Assembly (NCBI RefSeq): GCF_000739635.1
Contig: NZ_BATQ01000041.1
Location: 1 to 64,000, forward strand
DNA from: Verrucomicrobium sp. BvORR034
Lineage (GTDB): Bacteria > Verrucomicrobiota > Verrucomicrobiia > Verrucomicrobiales > Verrucomicrobiaceae
Reading direction: 5' to 3'
DNA length: 64,000 nucleotides
Under the pieces are notes generated by a model. It saw only the letters and a list, made by a program, of their open reading frames with translations. It was not told the origin of the DNA and made no database searches. The translations under genes and the position numbers were made by a program. Positions 45,692-58,564 of this stretch are shown here, piece by piece; position 1 is the stretch's first letter, and the number at the start of each line of letters is the position of its first letter.

Positions 45692-46287
45692 GAGTTGGCA
45701 GTGGCGCAGGGGCAGGTGTGTTTCGTACTGGGAGATGCATGAAAAACTTGAATCGTCTCGAATGCCAGTCCCTCAAGGAGGATCGCCGCAATGGGTAGCA
45801 AGCGTTCCCATCCATCTACAATTTCTATGTTGCCAGAATCCGAGACCTCGACCAAGGGCCGTTCGTCGTTGCGGATAACGTCCCGAAGCCCTTTCTTCTT
45901 CCAATTTCGGTAGTGCCGAATCTGCCGATCATCTCGTTGGGACGTAAAATATCCGCGATCAAGACAGATTCTCGCAAGCGTCCCGAGTCGTTGGGTGAAT
46001 GGGGACGGCACCAGCTCGCGCTCTTGCATCCACTTGTCGTTGGGCATGTATTCATGGACGAGAAGGTTCTCGATCTCTTCCCGGCTCGTGAATGCCGCGA
46101 TACACACGTGCGAGTTCCTGGGGCGTGGTAGCTTGTAGGAGTGCTTCACGCGAAGTGCTTCCACTGGGTCTGCGCCGCGCTCGATGTCTGCAAAGGTGTG
46201 AATGCCATCCTGGTTGCCTTTCTCGCTTTCCCGACGCCAGAACTGCCTTGCATACTCCTGTACTGTGGAATGATCCAAGATGGTCAT
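45688..46287 (-). CDS. Hypothetical island protein (199 aa), coupled to the SMI1/KNR4 gene
   Basis: It begins MTILDHSTVQEYARQFWRRE. A soluble protein with mixed charge and a helical C-terminus; no catalytic signature is evident. The four-base overlap with the SMI1/KNR4 gene suggests that the two work together, either as a toxin-like and immunity pair or as two immunity proteins. I see no toxin domain. Confidence 0.5.
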   Translation of the reverse strand: MTILDHSTVQEYARQFWRRESEKGNQDGIHTFADIERGADPVEALRVKHSYKLPRPRNSHVCIAAFTSREEIENLLVHEYMPNDKWMQERELVPSPFTQRLGTLARICLDRGYFTSQRDDRQIRHYRNWKKKGLRDVIRNDERPLVEVSDSGNIEIVDGWERLLPIAAILLEGLAFETIQVFHASPSTKHTCPCATANS

Positions 46288-46514
46288 GGGTTCATTCTTT
46301 GTGGTCAATCGACGCGTAGATGGTTGAGAGTTTGGCGCATGAGCCTCTTTTGTCACGGGTTTTTGCCGACGGTTCACCGCTAGGGCATTGGCATTTCATC
46401 CTTCTGGAAAGGGGAACTCCTGCCTTTGCTGGCAGTACTCCTGTCTGACGTCATCGCGCAGGGGATTGCTGGCGACTGCTAGCGCATGTGCTGCCTCCCG
46501 GCAACCCAGTCCTG

Positions 46515-46635
46515 ACCGCGTTTTTATAAACGCAGTTCAACCTCCCGTCGCCAAACATCCGCAGGCTGAAGCCTGGACTGCGTACAACTCCCGGCCCAAC
46601 ACCTTGACGCACTGCCCACCGACGCACTGAAGCAC
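46515..46635. repeat. Two dispersed repeat families in a 365-base gap
   Basis: 46515-46537 is a copy of the GACCGCGTTTTTATAAACGCAG element. 46558-46632 is a copy of CCGCAGGCTGAAGCCTG... ACACCTTGACGCACTGCC. No gene is seen between 46288 and 46652. Confidence 0.65.
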
Positions 46636-46652
46636 TGGCCCGAAGTGGCCGC

Positions 46653-46850
46653 TCACCTGTTTGTGTCATTGGAGCCAAGCAACTCAAACCGCAGCTTCAA
46701 GTTGTCTTCCACTCGCTGGAGACGCTCCTCTGTCGTCTTGAACCGGTGCTCCAGCGTCTGGACCCGGCCAGTCGTGTAGATGCTGTAGCACAGCAGCGCC
46801 ACGGCCACCATGGTTATGCCGGGAAGAACAAGTGTGCGCAAGGTTTTCAT
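46653..46850 (-). CDS. Small membrane-anchored coiled-coil protein (65 aa)
   Basis: It starts MKTLRTLVLPGITMVAVALL, a single membrane helix near residues 8-27, followed by a coiled coil (TLEHRFKTTEERLQRVEDNLKL). It is too small for a known enzyme. The longer frame upstream is unlikely to be coding. Confidence 0.5.
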   Translation of the reverse strand: MKTLRTLVLPGITMVAVALLCYSIYTTGRVQTLEHRFKTTEERLQRVEDNLKLRFELLGSNDTNR

Positions 46851-47212
46851 TTTGGGTGGTTGGACGTTCTTGTTATGGCGTTGGCTCGGAGGCAGTCGCC
46901 AGCAGGATGACGATGGGGAGACATTGCTCACGACGTGCGAGAGCGCCGAGCGAGCATTATTCCAACATTTTTCAAGCTCGTCTCCCGTCTGGCCGATCGG
47001 AACGAGGGGGCACTACGGCGAGCTTGAAATCGACCCCCGCGGTTGACAGTGTCGCCAGGAAATCGGGACCGCGTTTTGCAAACGCAGCTACGCATGCTCC
47101 TCCTGCGCTAGGCAGGTACAGGCGGCAGAAAGGGGCTGCCCCAAAAACACAAGCCGGGCTAGTTCAACCAAGGTTGCTGTTGCTGGCTCGCAATCTCGCA
47201 GGACGGCACCTT
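46851..47212. other. Non-coding gap with a GACCGCG...AAACGCAGC element
   Basis: 47068-47093 is a copy of the GGGACCGCGTTTTGCAAACGCAGC element. CTCCCGTCTGGCCGATCGGA (46982-47001) recurs in similar form at 49896-49920. Otherwise no gene is visible. Confidence 0.5.
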
Positions 47213-47533
47213 CTATTGATTGGCTGAGCCGTCATTTGAGTTCGTCGAATGCCACGTTTTGACAAGGAATTCCACGAATGCCGAAAGCGAGATCGTTCGG
47301 TCGTCATGCACTTTCAGTATGGCAAAGGCCTCTTCCGTGACTCTCTCGTCGGCGTGCATCAATGCCTTTTCAGCGCGTCGATCATGCAGGGGAAGTAGCG
47401 GCGGAAACTGGGCACGTTCATCGTCGAGGTGCATAAAGGCCTCTCGACATCGTGCGCATTTCAAAAACAACGCCCAGTAGGTTGGAAATGTGCGGACGGT
47501 TTCCAGCGAATTGCCGCAATTGGGGCAGTGCAT
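47213..47533 (-). CDS. Zinc-ribbon hypothetical protein (106 aa)
   Basis: It begins MHCPNCGNSLETV, with a second pair LKCARCREAF near residues 25-34, giving a zinc-ribbon at the N-terminus. A helical domain with SLSAFVEFLVKTW follows. Probably cytoplasmic; role unknown. Confidence 0.6.
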   Translation of the reverse strand: MHCPNCGNSLETVRTFPTYWALFLKCARCREAFMHLDDERAQFPPLLPLHDRRAEKALMHADERVTEEAFAILKVHDDRTISLSAFVEFLVKTWHSTNSNDGSANQ

Positions 47534-47658
47534 CGTTTGATAACGTTTGAGGATTTTCGCCGACTGCCGGGAGTGCGCGCTCGATGTGAGATGGAGGATG
47601 GGTCAAGGGGGAGTCGATTGAATTCCGGGCCGGGCAGCCGTAGGTCTCCATGCGCTTG

Positions 47659-48270
47659 TCATCCCGTTGTTGGTCGTTCGATCGCGATGACGTGGTCGGG
47701 GTGAAAGCACAGCTCTGCCCCGCTTGAAACGGTCTTGTGAAACTGCGGGTCGTTGTCAAGAGTGCCCTTCCAGTGCCCATTGCAAGCCTCCTTCGCGATC
47801 ACCCACATGCGTTCGCAATCGTAGTCCTTTGGTTCCTGCCCCTCGGGAATGAATGAGAACATCAGCTTAACCCAATCGCCTTCCTTGATTGCCAACCGTT
47901 CGTCCTCCGGCGGGATCAAAAATGTGTCTGGGAATAACCTTTCCCGCTCAGCGGCATTATCTAGATAGTATCCGTGCTCCGTGAATGTGGGATACGGGTG
48001 ATTCAGCGAGCGCCTCCATGTGCCGCTTGAATTGGCGCGGAGGGCTCGCCATCCATACTCGAGGTCGTGCAACTCGCCAATGGATGGGTCGCGTCGATAG
48101 ATCTCTTCGAGTGCCACAAGAGCGGGTTCTCCAGTGTCTGCGGCATGGAACTGCCAACCACCATCCTCGTAGTCGTGGTAAACCTCCAGAATCGGCGATC
48201 CGCCCAGCACTGCGTGCGTCGTGAAGCAGACAACGTTGCGCGGCTCGTCGAATGGCCAGTCGTTAAGCAT
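47659..48270 (-). CDS. Hypothetical DUF2314/DUF2185-like island protein (203 aa)
   Basis: MLNDWPFDEPRNVVCFTTHAV begins a domain with YHDYEDGGWQFHAAD, similar to DUF2185-like segments. The second half has EGDWVKLMFSFIPEG and ERMWVIAKEACNGHWKGTLDNDP, the pattern of DUF2314 (a motif E-x-MWV). Both domains are frequent in immunity-type genes. Assignment by eye only. Confidence 0.5.
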   Translation of the reverse strand: MLNDWPFDEPRNVVCFTTHAVLGGSPILEVYHDYEDGGWQFHAADTGEPALVALEEIYRRDPSIGELHDLEYGWRALRANSSGTWRRSLNHPYPTFTEHGYYLDNAAERERLFPDTFLIPPEDERLAIKEGDWVKLMFSFIPEGQEPKDYDCERMWVIAKEACNGHWKGTLDNDPQFHKTVSSGAELCFHPDHVIAIERPTTG

Positions 48271-48303
48271 CGGTTCGCTGCGGTGCATGGCTATGCCTTG
48301 CGG

Positions 48304-48678
48304 TCATTTGGGAATGGGGTCGATGAGGTGAGCGAAGTTCCGGTCGGCAACCATCCGGGCGAACTCCTCGGGTGTGAGAGCAACTCCTGCCTGCTGTGCT
48401 AGCTGCTGGTTGGTGGCCCACATTTGGCGAAGAGACTCGTCCAGAGAGTCGCCGAGATGCAATGTGCTTCGGAGCGTAGAACGCCAATCGCCATCGCCGC
48501 CGAAGACGCGCTGAGTAAGTGATGCCGCCAACTGCTCTTTGTCTGGAGCGAGGGTGCCGATGGCGCTCATAACGTAGTTCTCAAGCAGGATGAGCAATGG
48601 GCGACCGTAGTATCGGTCGGTCGTCGAGGAGGGGCCGACTGACTTGCTGCGTCTGGAAAAGAAATCGAAAAGACCCAT
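48304..48678 (-). CDS. Hypothetical MGLFDFF-type protein (124 aa)
   Basis: The start MGLFDFFSRRSKSVG is common to a range of small cytoplasmic proteins. The body is helical (LLILLENYVMSAIG, LDESLRQMWATNQQLAQQ). No family or catalytic residues recognised. It ends 33 bases from the downstream DUF2314-like gene. Confidence 0.5.
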   Translation of the reverse strand: MGLFDFFSRRSKSVGPSSTTDRYYGRPLLILLENYVMSAIGTLAPDKEQLAASLTQRVFGGDGDWRSTLRSTLHLGDSLDESLRQMWATNQQLAQQAGVALTPEEFARMVADRNFAHLIDPIPK

Positions 48679-48756
48679 GACTCAAGAACGGCGAGCGACA
48701 TCTGACGGGTGACTTACATCAACAAATCCCCATCCATCTCGGCCGTCGGACGTTGC

Positions 48757-48822
48757 GCGGGCAGAGGTGCAATGCCAGTGATGCCCGGAGTGGATCCGGT
48801 TGAGAATCTTGCACATGAACTC
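48757..48822. repeat. Recurrent intergenic module, copy B
   Basis: Matches the module at 42383-42450 (GCAGAGGTGCAATGCC and GAGTGGATCCGGTTGAGAATC). A weaker relative may exist at about 49715-49800. It contains the hairpin CGGGCA/TGCCCG. Confidence 0.55.
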
Positions 48823-48936
48823 GTTTTTTGAATTGGACTGACGACCCGGACTCATCGAACCGGCCTGCGGGCCATGATGACAAAACACGGCATCGTCCCG
48901 GGTTCTCCGCAGCGTTTGGTTGGCGCAACGGCGAGT

Positions 48937-49275
48937 TCAATGCTGAGCGCGTCCTTGCATTTGGAGGATGACCAGTGCGACGTAAAAGCCGACCACCGTA
49001 CCGATGATCCGGCCCCACGACCACACCTGCTTGTCTTTGTAGCACCAAATAGCCGTGGCCACTGTTGCCACCAAGCATGACATGAGGGTGTAAGTTGCGC
49101 GATAAGCTATGTTCTGCGATCCACTGATGAAGATCATACCAAGGATGGCAGCATAGAGAACTCCACCGCCGGTGAACGCTTTGAGAAAGGGTCTTTCGGT
49201 TTTAGCAGCTTTGCCTGTCTCTCGTCCTGGCAGCGGTGGGGGGGAGCTTTGGGAATCTGCAGGTGGTAATTCCAT
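48937..49275 (-). CDS. Small membrane protein (112 aa)
   Basis: After a Pro-rich start there are three hydrophobic segments (about residues 34-52, 59-78 and 88-105), and the C-terminus is cytoplasmic. Function unknown. The next gene upstream (49286-49669) ends 11 bases away, so the two are probably co-transcribed. Confidence 0.5.
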   Translation of the reverse strand: MELPPADSQSSPPPLPGRETGKAAKTERPFLKAFTGGGVLYAAILGMIFISGSQNIAYRATYTLMSCLVATVATAIWCYKDKQVWSWGRIIGTVVGFYVALVILQMQGRAQH

Positions 49276-49285
49276 AGATGTGAGA

Positions 49286-49669
49286 TTAGTCGCCCAACGA
49301 ACCCAAGCTCAACGATCCCGTCAAGCCGGGATTTGCTACAGTGCATGGTAGGGCAGCGTGTGTTGTAATCTGGTTGCTGAATACCTCAAACTGTGTCTCT
49401 CCGCTCTTGGCCTCAACACCCCAGGGACGCTCCGTGCTGATGATGCAACGTCCGTGGCCAAGCTCGTCAGTCCACTCGCGCACAATCTCACACGCGACAA
49501 CGCCGAGCTGAGGATAACTGCTGGCCTCATCCAAAGATGCATTGGTGAAAATCGAGACCTTGTCGACAAGCAGCCACTCCCGCCCCGATGCATCTCTGAG
49601 CACGCTCTCAACCCAACCGGGCTGTGATGTGTCGGTGAATCGAACAATCTGGACGCTGATGGTATGCAT
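49286..49669 (-). CDS. Hypothetical island protein (127 aa)
   Basis: It begins MHTISVQIVRFTDTSQPGWVE, with further strands (WLLVDKVSIF, GVVACEIVREW, FEVFSNQI) suggesting a small beta-barrel-like fold. Soluble. It resembles small immunity proteins in size and type, but no family is recognised. Confidence 0.5.
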   Translation of the reverse strand: MHTISVQIVRFTDTSQPGWVESVLRDASGREWLLVDKVSIFTNASLDEASSYPQLGVVACEIVREWTDELGHGRCIISTERPWGVEAKSGETQFEVFSNQITTHAALPCTVANPGLTGSLSLGSLGD

Positions 49670-49975
49670 GACACTGAGCCGCCTAACAGGTGCTTATTCC
49701 AACACATTCCCGGCCATTCCGGCAACCGGAAGTTGCGCAGGCAGGGGAGCTTGCCTGTGACCCTCGACGTGGATACGGTCGATAGGTTGGCACAAGGGTC
49801 CGTTTCGTCTCGATTTTTTTCACCTGTTGCCGGCATGAACACGGGGGTGAATAATGTCCGATTCGAGGATGTTATACCTATGGTTGACTTCCGTCTCCCG
49901 TCTGATTGGCCGGTCGGACCGAGTGAACGCAAGGAGGGAGGCTGCCCAATTGCACCGGCAACAGGCGATGCCCCG

Positions 49976-50196
49976 ACTGAACCGGCGGGACGCCGGTAAC
50001 ACGCACCGGCTGGAAGCCGGTGTCACTGCCGAACAGTTCGGACCGCGCCTTTACAAGCGCAGCTATGAAGCACCAATTCGCTGCGGTGGGGCGGGAGCAT
50101 TTCGCGAAAAGCCTCCGCAGGCTGAAGCCTGTACTCCGAACAGCTCCAGGTCCAACACCATGACACACTTCCTACTGACGCACTGACGCACTGGGC
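49976..50196. repeat. Composite of three dispersed repeat families
   Basis: In order: ACCGGCGGGACGCCGGT/CACCGGCTGGAAGCCGGTG (49976-50028), GGACCGCGCCTTTACAAGCGCAGC (50040-50063), and CCGCAGGCTGAAGCCTGTAC... (50115-50196). The same order occurs at 51569-51775. The stretch 49670-50218 has no gene. Confidence 0.75.
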
Positions 50197-50218
50197 CGCA
50201 GGCTGTATCGAGAGCGTG

Positions 50219-51837: not shown

Positions 51838-51860
51838 TTCTTGTCCAATATGCACAAGAA
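51838..51860. promoter_or_regulatory. Candidate operator palindrome upstream of the repressor
   Basis: TTCTTGT (51838-51844) and ACAAGAA (51854-51860) form a perfect 7-bp inverted repeat spaced by nine bases, 108 bases before the repressor start. This is the usual shape of a site bound by dimeric HTH repressors, perhaps the protein itself. Confidence 0.4.
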
Positions 51861-51967
51861 AAACTATCCATTTGGGTAGATGATTCGTTGTACGGTGCGG
51901 TGGGGCATGAGGCGAATCCTTATGTCTTGCCCGCCTCCACTGAGACTCATGCCCTGATGCTTTCGTC

Positions 51968-53266
51968 ATGACTTCTGCGCCCCGCTCCCTCCGGCTGACC
52001 CCCCACCAACGCCAGACCATGGCCGCTCTGGCGGAGAAGCTGGACCCCGTGCCGCAGAGCGGTAGCACCGTCCTGACCGAGACAGAGGAGACCCTCTCCA
52101 AACGGGCCAAGGCCATCCTCATGATGGAATCCGGGCGGGATCGCGCCGAGATCTGCCGCGAGCTCAATCTGGGCCACACAGAGCTCACCCGCGTGCGGCA
52201 CCGCTTTCTGCTTCTGGGGCTCTCCGGGCTGCACGATGTCAGCTCCCTGCCGCCGTATCGCCCGCTTGTGACAGGGACGATCAGCCGGACGGCTGCCCCT
52301 GTTTTGACGCCTCCCCGGTCCATCGCCGGGCTCAACGTGGGCACGCCGGGGCCACTTTCAGCATCGGTACCGGTCCCAGTAACCGTGCCCGCGTCCGCAA
52401 CGTCATCTGCTCACGGCCCTGCCTCCCCCCGCGGCCCTCGTCCCATCCAAGCTCTTCCAGCCACCATCATGCCGCACCTCCGCTCCGATAAAATGAATGC
52501 CGCCAACGCGGCCGGGCGCTTCCAGGCCCTGCGGGCGTGTCTGGGCATCAGCCGTCCGCAGCTTGCCCAGTGGTTGGGGGTTACGCGACAGTACATCACC
52601 AAGATCGAAGGCGGCATGCCCCCCTCCAAGCCCGTGATGCTGTTGGTGGAGCGGCTCGAGCAAGAGGCCAGCCAGAACTCCGAGCTCAATGGCAAACCCC
52701 GCGACGTGGAGCCCGTCTCCCACGGCTTCGCCCTCGCCGGCGCTGCCCTGGAAAACCTCTCCCGCGCGCAAGTTGCCGCGCGTCAAAAATCCAGCGGTGC
52801 CCATGCCGCTCCGCCCTCGGCCCCGCCATCCCGCGCCAACGGCGTCCACCTGGAGGCGCCCGTCTTTGCGGCCCGCTCCGTGCCGCTGCTCGCCATGCAT
52901 GAGGCCGCCGATCTGCCTTCCCCAGAAGAAGCCGCCCATCGCGGGCGTCAGCACCTCGCCTTTGTGGTGGAGGACGAGCAGGCCTTCGCCGTTCGCATCA
53001 CCGGCGAGGCCATGGCCCCGCATTATCCCGAGGGCAGCATTGCCATCGTCTGCCCCGGCCTCGCCAGTCGCAACGGGGATCTCGTCCTCGCCCGGCTTAA
53101 AGACGAGCGCGGCGGCGGCACCATGCTCCGCCTCGTCCACTTCATCCAGGATGGCGAAAGCCTCGTGCTCACCAGCACCCATGCGGCGTATCCTCCGCTC
53201 ACCGTGCAGAAGGAGGATCTGCTCTGGCTGGCACCGGTGACGGTGAGTTTGCGGCATTTGAGATAA
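51968..53266 (+). CDS. Repressor-like protein with two HTH segments and an S24-like domain lacking Ser/Lys
   Basis: A 432-aa protein. Residues about 40-85 contain a helix-turn-helix similar to transposase N-termini (AKAILMMESGRDRAEICREL, then NLGHTELTRVRHRF). A Pro/Ala linker follows. At about 182-232 lies an XRE-type HTH (LGISRPQLAQWLGVTRQYIT). The C-terminus (about 330-425) has the LexA/CI S24 fold. Where LexA has GDSM with the nucleophilic Ser, this protein has GEAMAP, and the catalytic Lys position appears to be Arg (TMLRLV). Self-cleavage is therefore unlikely. A DNA-damage-insensitive regulator is inferred. Confidence 0.7.
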   Translation: MTSAPRSLRLTPHQRQTMAALAEKLDPVPQSGSTVLTETEETLSKRAKAILMMESGRDRAEICRELNLGHTELTRVRHRFLLLGLSGLHDVSSLPPYRPLVTGTISRTAAPVLTPPRSIAGLNVGTPGPLSASVPVPVTVPASATSSAHGPASPRGPRPIQALPATIMPHLRSDKMNAANAAGRFQALRACLGISRPQLAQWLGVTRQYITKIEGGMPPSKPVMLLVERLEQEASQNSELNGKPRDVEPVSHGFALAGAALENLSRAQVAARQKSSGAHAAPPSAPPSRANGVHLEAPVFAARSVPLLAMHEAADLPSPEEAAHRGRQHLAFVVEDEQAFAVRITGEAMAPHYPEGSIAIVCPGLASRNGDLVLARLKDERGGGTMLRLVHFIQDGESLVLTSTHAAYPPLTVQKEDLLWLAPVTVSLRHLR

Positions 53267-56589: not shown

Positions 56590-57040
56590 TTTTCTTCGTA
56601 GCGCAGATTGTTAATCTGCTTTGCCGCCGATTGGCAATCGGCACCGGTCGCTAACGCGAAAGACGTTTGTTCTCACACGAAGGCACAAAGGCACGAAGGT
56701 TTGAGATCCCGGATGTTCCTAAAGGAGGCGGGAGCGCAGCCTCGCTCAATGATCGTAGCACCACTGACTTTTCGGATTCTATCTCATGCGCATCTCGGCT
56801 GTGTCTGTGTCCCGGAGGGACGATGGACATTAGCCGGTGGTGCCAACCACCGGGTAGGGTGTATGAAGTGAATTTGCGTCCCGCAGGGGACGCCGGAATT
56901 CCCGCTGACCGACTGCTTCCACACAATCATTCCGCGCTCCTCTCCAGCGTCCCTCCGGGACGCGACACCTATGCGGGGATGCAATCCGGTGGTTGGCACC
57001 ACCCGCTAATATCCGCCGTCCCTCCGGGACGAATGCTTTG
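56590..57040. repeat. Palindromic repeat cluster (GTCCCGGAGGGAC family)
   Basis: CCGATTGGCAATCGGCA (56627-56643), then several GTCCCGGAGGGAC/GTCCCTCCGGGAC units and CCGGTGGTTGGCACCACC palindromes between 56811 and 57040. These are the same families as at 1066-1086 and 34276-34362. The stretch 56501-57350 holds no gene. Confidence 0.7.
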
Positions 57041-57350
57041 ACCATCCTGCCGCATCAACCAAACACCCAAGCAGCTCATGCTGGGCAGAGGTGACACCGG
57101 CGTCTTGCCGGTGAGCTTCCCCAATGCCTCCCTGACCACCTTGAGGTCATAAAGGAGGCGAGGGCTCCCAGTCTCGCTCAGTCTCCCCACCGAGCAGGTG
57201 CAAAATACCCAGATCCAACTTACGCTCCTTCCGCCCGCCAATCGGACTCCACGCCGAAGGCATCCCAGAAGGTAGACGCCATGATGGCGGGATCAGCAAA
57301 CAACAGGCAACATGCCTGGTGCCACGCGAAAGGCACTGACCCACACCATC

Positions 57351-58564
57351 ATGACTACCTATACTTTGCACACCCCCGTCCCTTGTCACGCTGCGATCTG
57401 CAAGGCCCTCAATCTTGCCGGCCAGGAACGCCGTGTCACCCTGGGCCTGGACCTGGAGCTAAACACTCCCGCCGGAGCCCTGATCGTCGCTGGAGGCCAA
57501 CCGCTCAATCTGGGCAAGCATCCTCGCAGCCTCTGGGTTGAACTGGTTGGCTGGCTCATCAAGCAAGGCTGTGAAGTCCATTGCGTGCAGGAGGCTTGTG
57601 GCTTCGGCTGGGAGTTCCACCGTGAGTTGGAAGGGGCCGGAGCCGGCAGCATGGTGGTTGCTCCCCAGGAGCTCAGTGGCAAACGCAAGACCGACAAACG
57701 CGATGCCCGCATGCTGGCCTCCCTCTCTGGGACTATGTGAGCCGGGGCAACCGGGCCTGTCTGCGCCCGGTCAGGGTCCCCTCGGTGGAGAAGCAGCAGC
57801 AACGAGGGTATCACCGTCGCCGGTCTCAGGTGATCAAGATGCGTTGTCAGATTGCGGCTCAGGGGCGCAGCCTGTTGTGGGACCATGGCTGGTTGAAGCA
57901 ACTCAAGAGCTGGTGGACGCCCAAGAACTGGGAGCAGCTCAGAGCCGATTTGCTCGCCGCTGGCTGCAGGTGGCTGGTGGGCATGATTGAGCCCATGCAG
58001 AAAATGTGCCTGCAATTGAACGGGTATGGCAACGAGCTTGAAAAGAAGGCCGTCAGCGAAGTCAAGCCGCCGAAGGCTGCCACCAGGAAGTCCGAATCTG
58101 GCTTGCCCTTGAATGCGGCCCAATCTCCCGCGGCGTCAGAGGCCGCCCCGACAGGCAAAGTTCGCCCCAAAGGACTGGGTGAACTCAGCTATGCCATTAT
58201 CACTTCGGAAGTGGGTGACTGGAACCGGTTCAAGAACCGGGGTCAGCCCGGCTCCTTCATCGGCTGCTGCCCCAGTGAGTACAGCAGCGGAGAAAGTCAA
58301 AAGATGGGGGAGATTGACCGGATGGGCAGCTCGCGGATCCGCACGACGCTGGTGGAAGCGGCGTGGAGGATCTGCAGGCTCAATCCGAACTGGAGGGGGG
58401 TGAGGAAATATCCCGAGGAACTGGGGCCTGAGGCTACGGTCCGAGGAGCCAGGAAGCGCAAGGCCATCGTGGCATGCGCCCGGATGCTGATGATCGATCT
58501 TTGGAGATTGCATGTAGGTACGGCAACGTTGGAAGGCCTGGGCTTGGAGCCAGCCACCACCTGA
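57351..58564 (+). pseudogene. IS110/IS1111-type transposase, frameshifted
   Basis: The first part (57351-57740) has GLDLEL with the first catalytic Asp, VQEACGFGW with Glu, and KTDKRDARMLASL with the next Asp, the DEDD pattern of IS110 RuvC-like domains. The second part (57737-58564) continues in another frame with LRPVRVPSVEKQQQRGYHRR and ends with the transposase_20 block (FIGCCPSEYSSG, RIRTTLVEAAWR). The break lies in CTCTCT at about 57725, where two extra bases would explain the loss of frame. Inactive unless frameshifting occurs. Confidence 0.8.

Follow-up and report, generated by a model that had tools for sequence, protein, structure and literature searches.

A LexA/CI-Type Repressor Domain without Its Self-Cleavage Residues Marks a Clade of Verrucomicrobiaceae Proteins Related to Prophage Repressors

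Introduction

The CI protein of phage 186 is a prophage repressor that is not known to be cleaved and is released by the antirepressor Tum. The Gifsy repressors are not cleaved, yield to small antirepressors and appear to be without the C-terminal domain (PMC3121763). A phage-type S24 repressor can also be taken over by its host. FddR of Francisella was co-opted across the genus, autoregulates through a palindrome, keeps both the Ser-Lys dyad and the Ala-Gly bond, and runs a DNA-damage response (PMC13148647). In the LexA of Synechocystis sp. PCC 6803, the nucleophilic Ser is replaced by Asp and the scissile Ala-Gly by Gly-Gly, and the protein is probably no longer an SOS regulator (PMC3091678).

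Here, we analyzed a gene at 51968-53266 (+ strand) of a 64,000-nucleotide stretch of DNA from Verrucomicrobium sp. BvORR034, called the window below. The gene encodes a protein of 432 aa composed of an IS630-type helix-turn-helix (HTH), a linker, an XRE-type HTH, a second linker and a catalytically dead C-terminal domain of the LexA/CI type. An earlier note on this DNA had called a repressor of this kind an unusual design, which is fair, but a LexA without nucleophile and scissile bond was already on record (PMC3091678). The window protein and the Synechocystis LexA are both LexA-fold repressors lacking these two features. The latter, however, is the LexA of its species, whereas the genome of the window also has an intact LexA; moreover, the window protein is a relative of XRE/CI type, carries one HTH more and is dead across a clade. 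It would resemble FddR as a recruited prophage-type S24 repressor that autoregulates through a palindrome, but unlike FddR it has lost all three catalytic features. With phage 186 CI and the Gifsy repressors it would share repression without self-cleavage, although those serve prophages and are released by antirepressors. In the dead clade, a co-option like that of FddR and a catalytic death like that of Synechocystis LexA come together, and an HTH swap is added. No report of this clade was found in the open-licence PMC literature on Verrucomicrobia S24/LexA proteins or on dead, non-cleavable or domesticated S24 repressors.

Results

Domain Architecture and Predicted Fold

The C-terminal domain (residues 303-428; 52874-53251, + strand) was recognized in Pfam by Peptidase_S24 (PF00717) at residues 332-423, with 46.1 bits against a cut-off of 23.3. 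The first HTH (residues 45-92; residues 46-92 at 52103-52243, + strand) matched HTH_29 with 32.1 bits (cut-off 28.1) and HTH_28 with 26.6 bits (cut-off 25). Residues 45-92 also aligned to positions 1-48 of the 299 positions of the IS630 transposase model. This match reached 20.2 bits against a cut-off of 100, and by the full-length model the protein is not an IS630 transposase but carries the N-terminal HTH only. The XRE-type HTH (residues 178-238; 52499-52681, + strand) is supported by Pfam, alignment, structure model and dN/dS. Its HTH_31 match at residues 183-218 (25.5 bits) was slightly below the cut-off of 27, and XRE-type models exceeded their cut-offs in the relatives L007, L009, L011 and L016. 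The recognition-helix region reads RQYITKIE, which is approximately RQY[IV]T[KN][ILV]E in the aligned clade members. The two HTH segments seen in the earlier note, the first of them transposase-like, are both present. The orthologue in another Verrucomicrobium genome (G003) also has the IS630-type first HTH; in the remaining full-length clade members that were scanned (L007, L009, and L011), both HTHs are of the XRE type, and the paralogue L016 has a single XRE-type HTH.

An AlphaFold2 model built on a 22-row alignment had a mean pLDDT of 67.5. The confident parts were residues 40-83, 178-238, and 303-428, with low-confidence linkers between them; pLDDT was about 90 in the first HTH and about 91 in the C-terminal domain. 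The model of the C-terminal domain matched Thermotoga LexA (3k2z_B; Z 14.5, rmsd 2.3 over 117 residues), lambda CI (8gmu; Z 14.4), and phage 186 CI (2fkd; Z 11.5), the last of which shares the fold and serves a prophage. Model residues 303-432 superposed on LexA 73-197, the cleavage-site region included. This comparison with LexA, which the earlier note had proposed, and the PF00717 score bear out the LexA/CI fold. In addition, residues 174-417 matched the transcriptional repressor family phrog_4 (E 5.9e-12), while the NCBIfam LexA equivalog TIGR00498 gave 17.1 bits against a cut-off of 110.95, so that by this model the protein is not a LexA. An XRE-type HTH joined to an S24-like C-terminal domain is the architecture of a CI-type prophage repressor.

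The linker residues 84-174 and 248-299 had pLDDT values below 50, and long linkers of this kind are natural protease targets. That a protease of the host, either of Clp type or a metallopeptidase of IrrE/ImmA type, inactivates the protein in place of self-cleavage is nonetheless improbable in our judgment, since Pfam recognized no peptidase in the ten neighboring ORFs.

Loss of Three Catalytic Features

The catalytic positions were located in an alignment of 16 homologues, with the family profile as the link to lambda CI. The Ser position of GDSM is occupied by Ala348 (GCC; 53009-53011, + strand), and the position of the general base Lys by Arg388 (CGC; 53129-53131, + strand). Both replacements, reported in the earlier note, are confirmed by the alignment and the lambda CI match. 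Furthermore, Ala313-Ala314 (52904-52909, + strand) replaces the scissile Ala/Cys-Gly, which stands in a QAG or QCG context in the intact relatives. This third loss is new beyond the earlier note. In the codon check, Ala was encoded by GCC in all six genes, and Arg by CGC in five and CGA in one. As three features are lost at the sequence level, the protein is predicted to be unable to cleave itself on RecA filaments. The suggested lock against RecA-type induction is thus well founded in the sequence: with the dyad absent, the protein is very probably not RecA-inducible by autoproteolysis.

A Dead Clade within Verrucomicrobiaceae

The dyad loss is real, but it is not confined to the one gene in which it was noticed; it marks a clade over four genera of Verrucomicrobiaceae. 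We typed 90 distinct domains (89 relatives and the genome's own LexA) by nucleophile and base. Ser/Lys was found in 65, Ala/Arg in 14, Ser/Arg in six, and Cys/Arg in two; Pro/Arg, Ala/Lys and Ala/Cys each occurred once, the last in a 125-aa frame that is probably misaligned. The main tree, which is unrooted, comprised 48 of the 90 rows and was based on the XRE-type HTH and the C-terminal domain with six trait columns removed. In this tree, 17 distinct proteins formed one clade with a support of 100/100. Besides the window protein and its two orthologues, the clade contains a paralogue pair and further Verrucomicrobiaceae proteins, among them those of Prosthecobacter type. Arg stands at the Lys position in all 17. 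The nucleophile position holds Ala in 14, Ser in two (L137 and L026) and Pro in one (L016), and the scissile Gly is lost in 15, the paralogues L016 and L026 retaining Ala-Gly. The Ser kept in L137 and the Ala-Gly kept in L016/L026 indicate that the losses were not all simultaneous. L137 (L137:1498-2568, - strand), with the Ser of GDSM, Arg for Lys and no scissile Gly, is a possible intermediate or reversal.

Self-cleavage retained or regained through other residues would find some support in Ser398 and Ser403, which are kept in 15 of the 17 members, and in the Ser at the nucleophile position of L137. However, the C-terminal domain of the window protein has just two Lys, 378 and 415, and each is present in only 3 of the 17, which leaves no conserved Lys for a substitute dyad; a different Ser/Lys pair, the possibility that the earlier note had named as fatal to its claim, was not apparent. 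As the scissile Gly is also gone in 15 of 17, we consider such cleavage extremely unlikely.

In the 36-row tree (36 of the 57 rows of the C-terminal-domain tree with trait columns), 15 rows grouped with a support of 98/94. The C-terminal domain alone with the trait columns kept (57 rows) gave the dead clade 93/78; without them (138 columns, 54 of the 57 rows, LexA, L075, and L078 being omitted), a single dead clade was not recovered. With the 36-row set, the 13 Ala/Arg rows without the paralogues formed no clade in the best tree, yet this grouping was not rejected (AU p 0.12). A change from intact to dead is the direction suggested, in an unrooted tree, by the commonness of Ser/Lys outside the clade.

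Clade-strength matches (E<1e-50) were found in 16 of the 68 Verrucomicrobiaceae genomes and in four of the 11 genera; with 52 genomes lacking one, the regulator is not universal in the family. The class sample gave matches in 27 of 384 genomes (E up to 1e-10) and the phylum sample in 24 of 387 (E up to 1e-6), the genome of the window included in both. Matches without a given locus were left untyped, and among the typed loci of these two samples none outside Verrucomicrobiaceae was of the Ala/Arg type. Six proteins outside the clade (L060, L063, L083, L148, L169, and L170) are Ser/Arg or Cys/Arg and all keep Ala-Gly, so Arg has also replaced Lys in proteins that retain the scissile bond. A paralogue (219 aa from MPHLR) is present in the window's genome (G000) and in G002 (L033:4653-5441, - strand, and L037:3909-4676, + strand). 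Its XRE-type HTH is joined to a dead S24-like domain that is more degenerate, and its dN/dS is 0.09; at the paralogue-like match, G003 has an open frame of only 125 aa.

Intact Relatives on Viral Contigs

The closest other relatives in Verrucomicrobiaceae are Ser/Lys-intact. The XRE-S24 prophage repressors L012, L013, L017, L025, L034, L035, and L101-L109 have the same C-terminal domain as the window protein but, unlike it, keep Ser, Lys and Ala/Cys-Gly. Several of them are on viral contigs: L012, L017, L025, and L035 match ORFs of the IMG/VR viral contigs L101, L106, L107, and L109 residue for residue over their full length. Neighbors of L012 (L045) matched a DNA transposition protein, a head maturation protease and a major head protein, a neighbor of L017 (L046) matched a terminase large subunit, and a neighbor of L034 gave a weak transposase match. 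The single neighbors tested on L036 and L035 had no match, nor had three others of the ten neighbors in all. In a tblastn search of 50,697 phage records, the hits were the cI proteins of two E. coli phages, at 30% identity, and the dead profile, run against viral contigs, picked up five distant repressors, each of them Ser/Lys. Neither these phage records nor the viral contigs yielded a viral member of the dead clade.

Chromosomal Setting and Selection

The chromosomal locus of the gene is syntenic between three Verrucomicrobium genomes (G000, G002, and G003), the window from 37 to 53 kb being collinear with 1.550-1.564 Mb of G003 and with 62-74 kb of C125 of G002. PHROG matches among nine neighboring ORFs were a small ORF of an unknown-function PHROG, an EF-G family and a transposase family; head, tail, terminase and integrase families were not found among them. 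Given the syntenic chromosome and the lack of phage structural or integrase neighbors among these nine ORFs, the gene is not prophage-encoded. In Pfam, the matches among ten neighboring ORFs were EF-G, an IS110 transposase and a sub-threshold DUF2314, and the window ORFs downstream of the gene had no match to the G003 stretch compared. An intact LexA (GDSM, Lys) is encoded elsewhere in the same genome, which makes the SOS switch independent of the dead repressor.

Several other features were recorded around the locus and its relatives. For the ORFs of at least 80 aa at 45800-50200, the G002 and G003 regions compared contained no counterpart at E 1e-15. An IS110-type transposase extends across two overlapping ORFs at 57312-58564, and an Acido-Lenti-1 RNA match (39.6 bits, gathering 37) lies at 56808-56853 (- strand). 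In G003, a long tandem repeat with a GSGQWAV-type reading is located upstream of the gene (L032:8689-9456). The G002 copy falls into two frames, with the break in linker 1 close to a run of C in a draft contig (L031:2060-2720), and its halves are otherwise open. Clade members elsewhere are set among Ser/Thr kinase, NadA, iron-sulfur and 2-hydroxyacid dehydrogenase genes, and two Prosthecobacter-type members (L038:6160-7884 and L041:8679-10445) are divergent from a Ser/Thr kinase gene.

The dN/dS ratios were calculated by the Nei-Gojobori method with our own script. Between G000 and G003, the ratio was 0.072 in the C-terminal domain, 0.071 in the XRE-type HTH and 0.143 in the first HTH, compared to 0.474 and 0.289 in the linkers. 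Between G000 and G002, it was 0.048 in the C-terminal domain, 0.083 in the XRE-type HTH and 0.170 in linker 2. The dead C-terminal domain is under strong purifying selection (0.05-0.07), which indicates that it still does some job. A functionless, decaying remnant of a dead prophage would agree with the kinship to prophage repressors, with the frame break in the G002 copy and with the 125-aa open frame in G003. But dN/dS values of 0.05-0.08 in both conserved domains, the conserved promoter-region block described below, the synteny in three genomes and the presence of the clade in four genera disfavor such a remnant, and we regard it as very unlikely.

The constrained surface (dN/dS 0.05-0.07) could also be a protein interface. 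An antirepressor or corepressor might bind the dead domain and free the DNA, as for the Gifsy repressors, which are uncleaved and inactivated by small antirepressors (PMC3121763); the likeness of the model to the C-terminal domain of phage 186 CI (Z 11.5) points the same way. However, no partner gene was recognized in the ten neighboring ORFs, whose matches are those listed above, and no downstream window ORF matched the compared G003 stretch. Such a partner switch is in our view rather unlikely.

A Candidate Operator

An exact inverted repeat, TTCTTGT-N9-ACAAGAA, at 51838-51860 is a candidate autoregulatory operator, and its arms are invariant in the three genomes. It is part of a conserved promoter-region block (51838-51875, + strand) in which 36 of 38 positions are invariant in these genomes by an eye count, the two variable positions both lying inside the palindrome spacer. 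Such a repeat was present in 2 of 300 mononucleotide shuffles of the 160 upstream bases. Within the window, the palindrome was the sole match at up to two mismatches (at least one such match occurred in 14 of 100 shuffles). The exact palindrome is present in one copy per genome in G000, G002, and G003, upstream of the repressor gene. When the spacer was specified and up to three mismatches were permitted, one site per genome was found, compared to none for the reversed-pattern control. When one mismatch was allowed, the further places numbered 1 in G000, 1 in G003 and 2 in G002, against 3, 2, and 1 for the reversed control, which counts against the operator reading. No -35/-10 sigma-70 consensus was found in the promoter region. 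Half-site pairs like TTCTTGT/ACAAGAA upstream of eleven non-orthologue clade members were no better than shuffles, and the operator claim therefore rests on three genomes.

The DNA that the earlier note had picked out here is thus a plausible operator, judged by an exact and conserved inverted repeat. Its proposal of a silencer of the neighboring island was not supported. The exact palindrome occurs once per genome, at the gene's own promoter, which fits self-repression and argues against island silencing; furthermore, the locus is syntenic chromosome, and the nine neighbors match just an unknown PHROG, EF-G and a transposase.

Two other candidates were rejected. LexA control of the gene was considered with TGTTC-N4-GAACA, which we take to be the LexA motif; no match was found nearby, and the window contained one one-mismatch match compared to 1.6 expected. 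A palindrome of 21 bases, CTGCTGATTTGTnATCAGCAG, lies upstream of the paralogue and has a further one-mismatch site in three genomes. The further sites proved to be the anticodon arm of the tRNA-Thr(tgt) gene, and its reading as an operator of the paralogue was dropped; the palindrome is possibly an attachment-site remnant.

Discussion

We propose that the window protein is a domesticated relative of prophage repressors, a host repressor that does not cleave itself, regulates its own gene and retains its peptidase domain for dimerization, and we assign this reading a probability of about 0.6. The protein would be a chromosomal transcription repressor that shares its ancestry with the CI-type repressors of Verrucomicrobiaceae prophages. 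Lacking nucleophile, general base and scissile Gly, it is predicted not to cut itself on RecA filaments, and its fold and the selection on it suggest that the dead domain was retained as a dimerization or oligomerization module. Dimers may bind the palindrome at 51838-51860 through the XRE-type HTH and repress the gene's own promoter, as the conserved footprint and the genome-wide uniqueness of the site would suggest, and the IS630-type HTH of Verrucomicrobium would probably provide a second DNA contact. Derepression would then proceed via concentration, a ligand, a partner protein or host proteolysis, and not via SOS self-cleavage.

More tentatively, the regulator may have been put together from two DNA-binding parts of selfish elements, a disarmed CI-type repressor and, in Verrucomicrobium, a transposase-type HTH, with the dead S24 domain acting as a sensor or scaffold. 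The order of events that goes with it is likewise a doubtful suggestion: Lys to Arg would have been fixed at the base of the clade, and most members would have lost Ser and the scissile Gly. If this were true, the self-destruct domain, once a fuse, would now serve as a new sensor or scaffold.

For annotation, the clade calls for caution, as PF00717 matches are not always peptidases. For the host, the sequence features suggest a probable role of the protein as a durable regulator that is not turned off by DNA damage. Moreover, the S24 domains of one family make up a natural series that starts with intact prophage repressors, passes through the Ser/Arg form and ends in triple-dead and strongly selected domains. 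This series makes testable what a LexA-type domain is for once self-cutting is lost, and by which route a viral repressor becomes an SOS-insensitive host regulator.
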